Source: Paracoccaceae bacterium
GTDB lineage: Bacteria > Pseudomonadota > Alphaproteobacteria > Rhodobacterales > Rhodobacteraceae
NCBI GenBank assembly: GCA_030066175.1
Contig: JASJCC010000008.1
Span: 1 to 37,550, forward strand
DNA length: 37,550 nucleotides
Direction: 5' to 3'
This document shows positions 19,023-24,682 of the stretch, one piece after another; the stretch's first letter is position 1; each line of letters begins with the position of its first letter. Below the pieces are notes generated by a model. It made no database searches. It saw only the letters and a list, made by a program, of their open reading frames with translations, and was not told the DNA's origin. The position numbers were made by a program, and so were the translations under genes.

Positions 19023-21464
19023 ATGAGCACGCTTCACCCGTCCTTGCAGGGTTTCTTTGACGCCCGCGGTTGGCAGATCCACCCGCATCAGCGCGACATG
19101 CTGGAGCGCGCGGGCGATCCCGCGCTTTTACTGATCGCGCCCACAGGGGGCGGCAAGACACTGGCCGGGTTCCTGCCGACGCTGACCGAACTGGCCGAGG
19201 CGCCGCATGACGGGTTGCACACGCTCTATGTCAGCCCGTTGAAGGCGCTGGCGGCGGACATCAAACGCAACCTGCGCACGCCGATTGACGAGGCCGGGCT
19301 GCCCATTCGCGTCGAGGATCGCACCGGCGACACGCCGGCCAGCCGCAAGAAACGCCAGCGCGCCGACCCTCCGCATATCCTGCTGACAACGCCCGAGTCG
19401 CTGGCGCTCTTGACCAGCTACGAAGACGCGCCGCGCATGTTTGCCGGGCTGCAGCGCATCGTGGTGGATGAAATCCACGCGCTTGCCGAATCCAAACGCG
19501 GTGACCAACTGATGCTGGCGCTCGCCCGGCTGCAAAGCCTCTGCCCCGATCTGCGGCGCGTGGGCCTCTCTGCCACGGTCGAAGACCCCGCCGCCATCGC
19601 CCGCCTGCTGGCGCGCCACCCTGACCCCTGCGAGATCCTGCGCGCCGATCCCGGCCCCGACCCCGACATCCAGATGCTGGTCACCGATGAGGCCCCACCC
19701 TGGTCCGGCGGCGGTGCCAAATACGCCATCCCGGCGGTTCTGGAACAGGTCCGCAGACACAACACAACGCTGATCTTTCACAACACACGCGCCCAGGCCG
19801 AGCTGTTCTTTCACAACCTGTGGCTCGCCAACGAAGACGCGCTGCCGATCGGCATCCACCACGGGTCACTCGACCGCAAGCAACGCGAAAAGGTTGAGGC
19901 GGCGATGGTCGCCGGGCAGCTGCGCGCCATCGTCTGCACCGGCAGCCTCGATCTGGGCATCGACTGGGGCGATGTCGATCTGGTGATCCAGGTGGGTGCG
20001 CCGAAAAACGTCAAACGCCTGGTGCAGCGCATTGGCCGGGCGAACCACCGCTACAACGCGCCCTCCAAGGCCCTGCTGGTGCCTGCCAACCGCTTCGAGG
20101 TGGTGGAATGCGTCGCCGCCTTGGACGCCGTGCGCGCGCATGACTTGGACGGAGACCCGCGCGGCCCGGGCCCCCGCGACGTGCTCTGCCAGCACATCCT
20201 GATCGCCGCCTGTGCGGGGCCATTCGACGCCGATGATCTCTATGCCGAGATGACCAGCGTCGGCGCCTATGCGCACCTGACCCGCGCCGCCTTTGACGCC
20301 TGTTTGGATTTCTGCGCCACCGGCGGCTACGCCCTACGCGCCTATGACCAATGGAAACGCCTGCTGCAACGCCCCGACGGCCAATGGCAACTGCGCGACC
20401 CGCGCAGCGCTGCCCGCATCCGCCAGAATATCGGCACGATCCAGGACACAGACACGCTCAAGGTGCGCTGGCGCGGCCGCGGCGGTGCGCCTCTGGGCGA
20501 GGTCGAGGAAGGCTTTGCCGCCTCGCTGACCAAGGGCGACACCTTTCTGATCGGCGGGCAGATCGTTCGCTATGAGGGGCTGCGCGAGATGGTCGTCGAA
20601 GTGACCCGCGATCCGGGCCGCAAACCCAAGATCGCCACCTTCATGGGCACCAAATTCGCCACCTCCACCCAGCTTTCGGCCCGCATCGTAGAGATGTTCC
20701 AACAGGACGCATGGCCCGATCTGCCCGCCCACACCGCCGATTGGCTCGCCCTGCAGCGGGAACTCAGCCGACTGCCCGAACCCGGGCGTCTACTGGTCGA
20801 AAGCTTTCCGCATGATGGGCGCGAACAGATGGTGGTCTACGGCTTTGCAGGGCGCAACGCGCAGCAGACGCTGGGGCTCTTGCTGACCAAGCGGATGGAG
20901 GAGATGGGCCTCGCCCCGATGGGCTTTGTGTCGACCGACTACGCGACGCTGATCTGGGGGCTGGACGCGGTCACCGATCCGGCGCCTTTGTTCGACATCG
21001 CGGCCCTGGAGGCGGGGCTGGAGACCTGGCTTGCCGGCAACGCGGTGATGAAGCGCACATTTCGCGCCTCTGCCACGATCGCCGGGCTGATCGAGCGCAA
21101 TATCGGCGCCCAGCGCAAGACCGGACGGCAGGCGACGATGTCGTCCGACATCCTCTACGACACGCTTTTGAAATACGACCCCGACCACCTGCTGATGCAG
21201 ATCACCCGCGAAGAGGCGATGCGCGGCCTGGTGGATTTCGCCCGCATCCGCGAGATGGCCAACCGCGTCGAAGACCGCATCGACCACATCCGCCTGTCAC
21301 GCGTCACCCCGCTGGCGGCCCCCCTTTTCCTCGAACCCGGCCGCGTCCCCGTCAACGGCCTCGCCGACGAACGCCTGCTGGAGGAAGAAGTCACCAAACT
21401 CCTGAACGAAAGCGGCCTCGCCCAAATAGACCCCCGCCCCCGCACCTGGCGCGTGCCCTACTGA
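19023..21464 (+). CDS. Ligase-associated DNA damage response DEXH-box helicase (Lhr-like)
   Basis: An ATP-dependent nucleic-acid helicase of the Lhr family, 813 residues. That length fits the ligase-associated subfamily rather than full-length Lhr of about 1500. Motif I is APTGGGKT (39-46), motif II DEIH (about 149-152), motif III SAT, and motif VI is QRIGRANHR in the second RecA domain. After them comes the Lhr-core winged-helix and beta-barrel region. In the ligase-associated system it works with PdeM, an exonuclease and an ATP-dependent DNA ligase. PdeM is 2.5 kb downstream; the ligase and exonuclease are not in the window. A GTG at 19014 is an alternative start. Its last 7 bases overlap the opposite-strand STAND gene. 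Confidence 0.92.
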   Translation: MSTLHPSLQGFFDARGWQIHPHQRDMLERAGDPALLLIAPTGGGKTLAGFLPTLTELAEAPHDGLHTLYVSPLKALAADIKRNLRTPIDEAGLPIRVEDRTGDTPASRKKRQRADPPHILLTTPESLALLTSYEDAPRMFAGLQRIVVDEIHALAESKRGDQLMLALARLQSLCPDLRRVGLSATVEDPAAIARLLARHPDPCEILRADPGPDPDIQMLVTDEAPPWSGGGAKYAIPAVLEQVRRHNTTLIFHNTRAQAELFFHNLWLANEDALPIGIHHGSLDRKQREKVEAAMVAGQLRAIVCTGSLDLGIDWGDVDLVIQVGAPKNVKRLVQRIGRANHRYNAPSKALLVPANRFEVVECVAALDAVRAHDLDGDPRGPGPRDVLCQHILIAACAGPFDADDLYAEMTSVGAYAHLTRAAFDACLDFCATGGYALRAYDQWKRLLQRPDGQWQLRDPRSAARIRQNIGTIQDTDTLKVRWRGRGGAPLGEVEEGFAASLTKGDTFLIGGQIVRYEGLREMVVEVTRDPGRKPKIATFMGTKFATSTQLSARIVEMFQQDAWPDLPAHTADWLALQRELSRLPEPGRLLVESFPHDGREQMVVYGFAGRNAQQTLGLLLTKRMEEMGLAPMGFVSTDYATLIWGLDAVTDPAPLFDIAALEAGLETWLAGNAVMKRTFRASATIAGLIERNIGAQRKTGRQATMSSDILYDTLLKYDPDHLLMQITREEAMRGLVDFARIREMANRVEDRIDHIRLSRVTPLAAPLFLEPGRVPVNGLADERLLEEEVTKLLNESGLAQIDPRPRTWRVPY

Positions 21465-23914
21465 GCGTCCTGCGCTTCCAACGTGGCAAGCGCCGTTTGC
21501 AGGGTTTCCACGAACGCCGCCCCCGGATCGGGGTCAAGCATCAGGGCGTACAGCGCCTCGCGGACCTCCTGTTGCACCCAGGTCCACGCCTCATGCGGTG
21601 CGCCATCGCGTTCCAGTGCCGCGGCCTTGACATCTGCGACGGCGACCAAGGCGCGCCACTTCGCCTCCCCATCCTCGCCTTCGATCCCGTAACGCGTGCA
21701 AAGCGTGTGCAGGCGAGCCGCGCCCCACTCCCGATGCGCCTGGCGGACTGCCGCGGCCTCGGCCACCAACGCCTGCAGCGCGGCGTCGAGCGCCTCGCCT
21801 GCCGCCTGAGCCATGTCAAGATAGGCCCGGAGGAAGCGCAGCGCCCTGCCATGCCCCGGCCCCAGCAGATCAAGGCACGTCGCCGCCGCTTGCCGCATCA
21901 GCAGCAGGGCTGCGTCCCGCGCCCCATCCCGCCGCAGGCGTAGCGCGCTGTTGTTCCGGTCCACCGCCACATTTGGATGGCGCGGCCCAAGGCTTTGCAG
22001 TGCAGCGTCCAGCGCCGCCTGTTTGTACGTCGCCTCCCGCGCCCACAGCGGCGCAGCCTCTGCCACAGGTACGGTTGCGGCCCATTCGCCACATACGGCC
22101 CCAAGATTGCGGTCTTGACGGATCGTACTAGGGTGTTCGGGGCGTAGCTCCTTCGCAAAGATCTCCCGCGCTTGCACATGCAGCGCCTCCGCCTCTGCAA
22201 ACGCTTGGCGATCGCGATGCACACCCGCAATGTTGTTGAGCGTTGCGGCATAAGACGGGTGGCGCGGGCCGATTTCCGGCAGTTTCGCCTGAATATCGCG
22301 GGCACGGATATAGCTTTCCAGTGCTGCCGCCGGATCACCCAGCGCCTTTTGAAAGCCGCCCAGATTGTTCAGACTGGCGGCGAGCTCCGCGCTGTCCGGC
22401 GCCAGCGCCTCGTTAATTTCTACCGAGCTTCGGGCAAAGTCCAGATCGCCCTTCTGCACCCCACGGTGCAGCGCATAGCCGCCGATCTGGTGCAACAGCC
22501 GTGCCGCCGCGGCATCCGCCGCCCCTGCCGCCAGCAAGGCGCGGGCCTGCGGCAGCAGGCGGCGATAGGTTTCCCAATTGCTGGGGCTGCTGGCACCATA
22601 AGGCGCCTTGGCATTCACGATCCGCGCCGCCGCGCCCGACCACTGCGCGGCATCGTCGCCCAGCGCGACGCGCCAGAACTCTGCCACCAGCCGGTGCAGC
22701 CGCCAGACCGGCGCGCCCTCGGCCATCTCTTCCGCAACAAGCGACACCTTTCGCAAGCCATCCATCGCCCGCCGCACCCAGCCGTCACCCGCCACCTGCG
22801 TCAGCACATGCGGCAACGCCTGGCCGTCAAACGGGTTGGTGATCTCTTCCGTCACCCCTTCCTCGACCACCTCGGGCCACAGATCGTCGGGGTTCAGAAA
22901 ACACAGGATCGACAGCAGCGCCCGTGGCGCGTCGGCCAGCCCGTCGGTCGTCAGCGCCAGCGCAGCGGCGATGTCGAAGGTTTCCGGGCGGTCGGGGTCG
23001 TAATAGGCGCAGCCTGACCAGTGCAGTTCGGTCATGTCCGTCTTGCTGGCATCAAAGCCCGCCAGATACTCCGCCACGGTGGTCGAGGGGTTTTCGGCGA
23101 GGTACCCCGCCGCCGCGGTCAGCGCCAGCGGCCAGTGGCCCAGCCGTTCTGCCACCTCTGCCAACTCATTTCGGTCGCGCTGCGGCAGCGATTCACGCAG
23201 CAGTTCCAGCGATTCCGCCGGCGTCATGCGCCCCAGATCAAGCCGGAAATGGTCAGGCCAGGATGTCGCCCGCGAGGTGTAGATCAGCGTGACATTGTCG
23301 GCCTCGGCCGGGCTGTAGGCCTGCGCCAGCGCCGGGTCGTCGGCATTGTCGTAGATCAGCAGCCAGGGCTGGCCGCTTTGCACCACGGCGTTCAGCGCCG
23401 ACTTGGCCGCGGTGGCGCGGTCGCTGTTTTTGGCGCTCGGCGTATCCAAGGTTTCGGCCAAGGCGATCAGCTCGTTCTGCAGCGTGTCGATGTTCGCCGC
23501 CGGCAGCACCCAGACCCCGGCAAAGCGATGCCGGGCCGCCCGCGCCGCCGCAATCGCCAGCGTCGTCTTGCCAATCCCACCCATCCCGGCCACGGCGGCC
23601 TGCACGACGGTGCCCTCGGCACGCGCGATGCTCGCCATCAGGTCGTCGTTTTCTTTCCGTTTCACAAAATGCTGCGGAGCGGGTTGCGACGCAAGGTTCG
23701 AGACCTCGGGCCAGTCAGGGTTTTCGGGCAGCAAATCCTTGGCGTGGTTAGCCGCTGCGCGTGCGCGCGATAGCACGAAAAACAAAATCAACGCCAATGG
23801 CGGCAGGCCGAACCAGCCCAATATATCCCAGGGCTCCAAACCCAAAAAACAGGTTTTTCCTTTGAATATCAGATCCCCAGCTTCGTTGAGAAGGCACTCG
23901 GGCAGAAAATTCAT
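21458..23914 (-). CDS. Membrane-anchored NB-ARC/TPR STAND-type NTPase
   Basis: A large signalling-type ATPase of 818 residues. Near the N-terminus (about 29-49) is one hydrophobic segment (ILGWFGLPPLALILFFVL) followed by basic residues, so the bulk should be cytoplasmic. The NB-ARC module has Walker A AGMGGIGKTT (about 109-118), Walker B LLIYD (about 185-189), an IYTSR sensor (about 211-215) and a GHWPLAL motif (about 259-265). A winged-helix-like stretch follows, and then TPR repeats from about 510 (SLNNLGGFQKALGDPAAALESY, TLNNIAGVHRDRQAFAEAEALH). There is no TIR, nuclease or protease domain. The first 200 bases are less GC-rich than the rest. ATG 23914 was chosen over GTG 23920 for GGAG spacing. 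A role in phage defence or stress sensing is inference. Confidence 0.85.
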   Translation of the reverse strand: MNFLPECLLNEAGDLIFKGKTCFLGLEPWDILGWFGLPPLALILFFVLSRARAAANHAKDLLPENPDWPEVSNLASQPAPQHFVKRKENDDLMASIARAEGTVVQAAVAGMGGIGKTTLAIAAARAARHRFAGVWVLPAANIDTLQNELIALAETLDTPSAKNSDRATAAKSALNAVVQSGQPWLLIYDNADDPALAQAYSPAEADNVTLIYTSRATSWPDHFRLDLGRMTPAESLELLRESLPQRDRNELAEVAERLGHWPLALTAAAGYLAENPSTTVAEYLAGFDASKTDMTELHWSGCAYYDPDRPETFDIAAALALTTDGLADAPRALLSILCFLNPDDLWPEVVEEGVTEEITNPFDGQALPHVLTQVAGDGWVRRAMDGLRKVSLVAEEMAEGAPVWRLHRLVAEFWRVALGDDAAQWSGAAARIVNAKAPYGASSPSNWETYRRLLPQARALLAAGAADAAAARLLHQIGGYALHRGVQKGDLDFARSSVEINEALAPDSAELAASLNNLGGFQKALGDPAAALESYIRARDIQAKLPEIGPRHPSYAATLNNIAGVHRDRQAFAEAEALHVQAREIFAKELRPEHPSTIRQDRNLGAVCGEWAATVPVAEAAPLWAREATYKQAALDAALQSLGPRHPNVAVDRNNSALRLRRDGARDAALLLMRQAAATCLDLLGPGHGRALRFLRAYLDMAQAAGEALDAALQALVAEAAAVRQAHREWGAARLHTLCTRYGIEGEDGEAKWRALVAVADVKAAALERDGAPHEAWTWVQQEVREALYALMLDPDPGAAFVETLQTALATLEAQDAQ

Positions 23915-24007
23915 CAACACGCACTCCGATCACGCAGAGGTAGAATACACGCGCGCCGCTAGCTGTCACCCCTTGCCGATGGGCGTATGGAGTGGCAAGA
24001 ACAAGGC

Positions 24008-24682
24008 ATGAACACGTATGCCTTTTCTTTTGCTGATGCCGCCTTGGTGGCGCTGCCTTCGGGGGCGTTGTATTGGCCGGAGGAGGGGCTGCTTGTTGTC
24101 TCTGATCTGCATTTGGGTAAGGCCGGGCGGATGGCGCAGGTGGGGGGGGCGCAGTTGCCGCCTTATGAGGCGCGGGAGACTTTGGCGCGGTTAGAGGCCG
24201 ATCTGGAGGCCACCCGGGCCAGCCGGGTGATCTGCCTCGGTGACAGCTTTGATCGGCCCGAGTTGGGGCATGCGCTGCCCGAGGATGATCTGCTCTGGAT
24301 CACGCGGTTGCAGGCCGGGCGCGATTGGATCTGGGTTGAGGGCAACCATGATCCCGGGCCGATGAACCTGGGGGGCACGCACAGGATTGAGGTGAAGATC
24401 GGGTCGCTGGTCTTTCGCCACATCGCGCAGCCTGACGCGACAGGCGAGGTCAGCGGGCATTATCACCCCAAGGCGAGGATCCCGGCGCGCGGGCGGCTGA
24501 TTTCGCGGCCCTGTTTTCTCTTTGACACAAACCGCCTGATCCTGCCGGCCTATGGCACCTATACCGGTGGGCTCTGCACCACATCAAACGTGCTGTCGGC
24601 GTTGATGGCACCCAATGCGCAGTCGATCCTGACAGGCAAGCGCGCCCTGGCCGTGCCGATGCCCCGCGCCCGGCCAGCCTAA
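24008..24682 (+). CDS. pdeM: Ligase-associated DNA damage response endonuclease PdeM
   Basis: A calcineurin-like metallophosphoesterase of 224 residues. All metal-binding motifs are present: SDLHLGK (D33, H35), CLGDSFD (D79), EGNHD (112-115) and SGHYH (H151, H153). The opening ALPSGALYWPEEGLLVVSDLHLGKAGRMA is characteristic of the PdeM family, which partners the ligase-associated helicase. A start at 23987 is possible but adds seven residues outside the conserved region. The helicase gene is upstream on the same strand but separated by the opposite-strand STAND gene, so PdeM must have its own promoter in the 93-base gap or read through antisense to that gene. Confidence 0.9.
   Translation: MNTYAFSFADAALVALPSGALYWPEEGLLVVSDLHLGKAGRMAQVGGAQLPPYEARETLARLEADLEATRASRVICLGDSFDRPELGHALPEDDLLWITRLQAGRDWIWVEGNHDPGPMNLGGTHRIEVKIGSLVFRHIAQPDATGEVSGHYHPKARIPARGRLISRPCFLFDTNRLILPAYGTYTGGLCTTSNVLSALMAPNAQSILTGKRALAVPMPRARPA

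Follow-up and report, generated by a model that had tools for sequence, protein, structure and literature searches.

Among bacteria, STAND proteins of the plan considered here have an N-terminal effector, a central NTPase, and a C-terminal sensor, a three-part arrangement common to the Avs and bNACHT anti-phage proteins and to the protein described below, although Avs and bNACHT belong to NACHT-type or other STAND clades (PMC12169576). Closer likenesses are found among the bacterial AP-ATPase (NB-ARC)-TPR proteins, including TIR-NB-ARC-TPR proteins and FxsT (NF040586), which have the same central NB-ARC with all of its motifs and the same C-terminal TPRs. Conflict systems whose effectors are AP-ATPases with C-terminal TPRs, and which also have EADs, are on record (PMC7159879); one relative of the protein studied here (L029) carries EAD2. 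Unlike those conflict systems, the gene studied here is solitary, with no vWA-MoxR-VMAP partners beside it. Apaf-1 and the plant NB-ARC NLRs share the NB-ARC fold, the on/off motifs, C-terminal sensor repeats, and an N-terminal effector, but their sensors are WD40 or LRR repeats and their effectors are CARD, CC, or TIR domains, whereas the present protein has a membrane helix. Since an NLR-like system of Caulobacter acts in lysis for the release of gene transfer agents (PMC13236601), phage defence is not the sole possible use of such a switch.

The window (the whole stretch of DNA analysed, 37,550 nucleotides from a Paracoccaceae bacterium) contains a ligase-associated DEXH helicase gene and pdeM on the plus strand, with a gene for a STAND ATPase as the sole ORF between them and convergent to the helicase gene (Table 1). 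This arrangement had been read from the letters alone in the original prediction, and it was borne out. The profiles for both repair proteins scored above their cut-offs, and the intact ORF, the TPR_12 score, the STAND motifs, and the structure model agree on an 818-residue minus-strand NB-ARC/TPR protein. The ORF runs from an ATG at 23914 to a stop codon at 21458-21460 and shares 7 bp (21458-21464) with the helicase ORF, within which its stop codon lies. The ligase of the same repair system is on another contig of the host genome. No tRNA was found in the window, nor were any further defence genes among the genes scanned there.

Table 1. Features of the STAND gene and its neighbours (positions in the window)
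Feature	Position	Strand	Evidence
Ligase-associated DEXH helicase (TIGR04121)	19023-21464	+	1007 bits, cut-off 850
STAND ATPase gene, 818 aa from ATG: single TM helix + NB-ARC + TPR	21458-23914	-	
TPR array, about residues 511-704	21803-22384	-	TPR_12; mostly high-confidence model helices; kinesin light chain TPR matches
NB-ARC core, about residues 82-407	22694-23671	-	Invariant columns, 8-protein alignment
N-terminal transmembrane helix, about residues 31-49	23768-23824	-	Hydropathy 2.13 over 19 residues; helix 38-61 in AlphaFold2 model
Sigma-70-like promoter of STAND gene (GTGACA-16-TATTCT)	23942-23969	-	9/12 matches; consensus match only
Right-hand insert boundary, where spacer-like sequence of relatives resumes (ACCCCTTGC...)	about 23960-23971		Comparison with G025 spacer
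CTTGC box, 36 nt upstream of pdeM ATG, probable -35 element of pdeM's own promoter	23972-23976	+	Conserved position
PdeM metallophosphoesterase (TIGR04123)	24008-24682	+	206 bits, cut-off 150

The protein encoded between the two repair genes is an NB-ARC-type STAND ATPase with an N-terminal membrane helix and C-terminal TPRs. When its domains were scored with Pfam profiles, a check proposed with the original prediction, TPR_12 was well above its cut-off (69.6 versus 30.1 bits) and NB-ARC was just below (19.7 versus 23.5 bits). The core nevertheless carries R86, the P-loop GMGGIGKTT, the Walker B motif WLLIYDN, TSR, GHWPLAL, and LHRL with an MHD-like histidine. In an alignment of eight proteins, G112, G113, G115, K116, W184, L185, D189, N190, T213, R215, P262, L263, A264, H407, and R408 are invariant, and the P-loop, Walker B, TSR/sensor, GxPLAL, and MHD-like histidine are all kept across the aligned family. 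A hydropathy scan revealed one membrane helix and no second, a feature that the earlier reading had not mentioned, and the Pfam search found no DNA-binding domain. The AlphaFold2 model (mean pLDDT, 72.8), which was built on a thin alignment of 8 rows and has poor termini that are not reliable, shows an NTPase with a TPR superhelix after it. Its best Foldseek match in the PDB was 6mfv (E, 7e-11), a crystallised STAND protein with the same order of NTPase then TPRs and about 14% identity; further matches were to kinesin light chain TPRs and to ADP-bound Apaf-1 (1z6t; E, 1e-8). The NB-ARC fold is thus recovered through Apaf-1 and 6mfv despite the Pfam score being below the cut-off. Taken together, the domains and motifs place the window protein in the NB-ARC-TPR kind already known, as a member outside both the FxsT cut-off and the PADLOC profiles.

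The interval between the helicase gene and pdeM was then compared across 150 genera of the family, in which 110 helicase matches had pdeM on the same contig. The two genes were co-oriented neighbours with pdeM downstream in 109 of the 110, in agreement with the earlier statement that they commonly adjoin, and the gap, measured between the matched parts, was shorter than 100 bp in 77 of the 109 (median, ~60 bp). In the nearest relative read (G025), which is syntenic on both flanks along most of the window, the spacer is 51 bp. No relative read had a STAND gene in this gap, the outcome of an interval comparison that had been suggested as a check. Long gaps of 0.9 to 4 kb were present in six other genera, five of which were read for cargo, leaving aside the 4-kb gap of G008. 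Four of the five contained an IS1595 transposase, an MFS transporter, ZinT, or an LCCL-domain protein, and no clear gene was seen in the fifth (G014). Because these long gaps hold unrelated cargo, the helicase-pdeM gap is a tolerated site, one that gains and loses single genes. The comparison supports insertion of the STAND gene into this gap in the host lineage, one of the options offered in the original prediction, and the presence of unrelated genes at the same place in other genera makes its position beside repair genes probably incidental. In place of a suggestive pairing of an immune ATPase with a repair locus, the better-supported account is that of operon-like neighbours with a gap that accepts insertions of single genes.

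Both junctions were inspected. At the left junction, the last helicase codons (CCC TAC TGA) contain the STAND stop codon, and the helicase C terminus reads WRVPY; since WRVPF/Y is common to four relatives (G025, G047, G002, and G190), the helicase is taken to be whole. On the right, the insert ends just before the CTTGC box of pdeM, which is kept in the window; of 23 independent relatives, 17 have a CTTGC-type box at a distance of 36 to 38 nt ahead of the pdeM ATG, which suggests that pdeM has a leaderless promoter to itself. Back to back with this box is the sigma-70-like site assigned to the STAND gene; the region has no other such site, and 0.2 were expected. With the helicase C terminus whole and the box upstream of pdeM kept, neither repair gene need be harmed by the insert, and both look undamaged. 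Neither target duplications nor terminal repeats were seen at the junctions above chance. The STAND gene has no foreign composition: its GC3 and codon score are mid-range and its codon usage is native, giving no sign of recent transfer.

The family to which the window protein belongs is sparse and highly divergent, with members mostly 25 to 35% identical, and in samples of the family, the class, and the phylum the best relative reached at most about 39% identity over only a short NB-ARC stretch. STAND matches were found in 18 of 298 genera, a tally that includes TPR-only matches and is not an exact prevalence, and that comes from a first pass scoring three candidates per genome, outside of which the host's own second STAND copy fell. 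The distribution is patchy, and most genera lack the gene. Phage records gave no match, plasmids gave only distant ones (about 37% identity or less), and viral contigs gave three weak ones (up to 28%). A tree of the NB-ARC core, another of the proposed checks, joined the window protein to family members at 95/95, a placing that is unsure because the protein has a very long branch meeting another long branch (G146).

Members of this family differ at their N termini. The window protein and those of G084, G142, and G067 begin with a TM helix; those of G296, G017, L065, and L066 and the host's second copy begin with a TIR domain; and L029 and L067 begin with EAD2 and HTH, respectively. Homologous cores are thus joined to unrelated N-terminal domains. 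The host's second STAND gene encodes a TIR-NB-ARC-TPR protein (L127 on contig C109, 6897-9347, plus strand; TIR, 74 bits) and lies near yebC, a transposase gene, and an HTH/peptidase gene. Related cores therefore occur with TIR in this very genome, and the window protein has a TM helix instead. Over 688 residues of core, this TIR copy and the TM protein of G142 share 64% identity, and their N termini are unrelated. The two form a clean TIR/TM swap on a homologous core, observed in relatives that share only about 30% identity with the window protein and not in the window protein itself. The switching of N termini between TIR and a membrane helix within a sparse NLR-like family is the point of most interest here, and the pair whose cores share 64% identity offers a natural experiment, ready for use, on the question of whether a lone TM helix acts as an effector. 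We put forward, tentatively, that a class of NB-ARC-TPR immune receptors in this bacterial family may use a single membrane helix as an effector swappable with TIR, one chassis serving either NAD depletion or a membrane route; the helix could also be an anchor only.

The TIR/TM exchange points to a role in defence. Our preferred reading, which we hold with a probability of about 0.58, is that the window gene encodes a solitary, membrane-anchored, NLR-like STAND ATPase that acts as a conflict switch and was inserted in the host lineage into a tolerated gap, the repair neighbours having no part in it. The C-terminal TPRs would bind a trigger, perhaps a protein of a phage or some signal of stress; the NB-ARC core, until then in an off state with ADP bound, would exchange nucleotide and oligomerise; and the clustered N-terminal helices would damage or depolarise the inner membrane, which would halt the infected or stressed cell, with the DNA-repair neighbours staying outside the mechanism. 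The immune-switch idea of the original prediction is made plausible by the exchange of N termini; no PADLOC-DB 2.0.0 family matched the protein at E 0.1, and its function is one that we infer.

STAND-TPR proteins include regulators, and the window protein might instead be a membrane-anchored MalT- or AfsR-like regulator, of the signalling or transcription type, or have some other house function unrelated to defence. A weak match of the NTPase to AfsR (45 bits; cut-off, 1430) agrees with such a role, which we nonetheless judge unlikely given that the protein has no DNA-binding domain, that the N terminus is exchanged for TIR within the family, and that the distribution is patchy, with most genera lacking the gene. 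It is quite improbable that the protein is FxsT, the TPR ATPase of conflict systems that process FxSxx-COOH peptides. NF040586 was its top NCBIfam match and was matched by all eight aligned relatives, and the host genome does encode a radical SAM protein that resembles FxsB (332 bits). However, the 211 bits scored by the window protein fall below the NF040586 cut-off of 300, there are no peptide-processing genes alongside, and the FxsB-like protein, the only strong one in the host, is under its own cut-off (370), is unlinked to the STAND gene on another contig (C70), and adjoins a small ORF that ends in ESAG and not in FxSxx. Given this score, and with neither an FxSxx-COOH precursor nor an FxsB linked to the gene, membership was rejected.

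The original prediction had also proposed that the STAND protein monitors damage to, or phage attack on, the repair machinery. That it senses DNA damage or an attack on the helicase/PdeM system and works with that system is very improbable in our estimation. Only position argues for this, including that of a related NB-ARC-TPR gene about 5 kb upstream of the helicase gene in G190. Against it, no other genus read has a STAND gene at the helicase-pdeM gap, conserved linkage with the two repair genes is absent from the relatives read, STAND relatives occupy other places in other genomes, and the same gap holds unrelated cargo elsewhere; the window gene is, moreover, convergent to the helicase gene, and pdeM retains its own upstream element. 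In G190, the nitroreductase-CaiB-helicase block is away from its usual neighbours and lacks pdeM, and the repair link was rejected because the STAND gene there sits at the yebC locus, as does the host's second copy, where no helicase gene is present. An assembly artefact, in which the STAND gene was wrongly joined into the contig, would be in keeping with a draft genome of 253 contigs that is 84% complete, but both junctions fall at gene boundaries, the GC content and codon usage of the gene fit those of its neighbours, and the flanks are syntenic with G025, which makes such an error exceedingly improbable.

Several other loci were noted in the course of these comparisons. On C70, the FxsB-like radical SAM/SPASM gene (L103, 2131-3249, plus strand) follows an 84-aa ORF (1751-2005) and is followed by an alpha/beta hydrolase gene; the ORF may encode a peptide precursor, and the locus is possibly a RiPP cluster. 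In G190 (L092 and L106), the nitroreductase-CaiB-helicase block lies between LysE and EamA genes, with no pdeM found within about 11 kb downstream, and the NB-ARC-TPR gene directly follows yebC. In G296 (L090, 3658-10825), the TIR-NB-ARC-TPR gene adjoins genes for a YfbK-type vWA protein and a trypsin-like peptidase.
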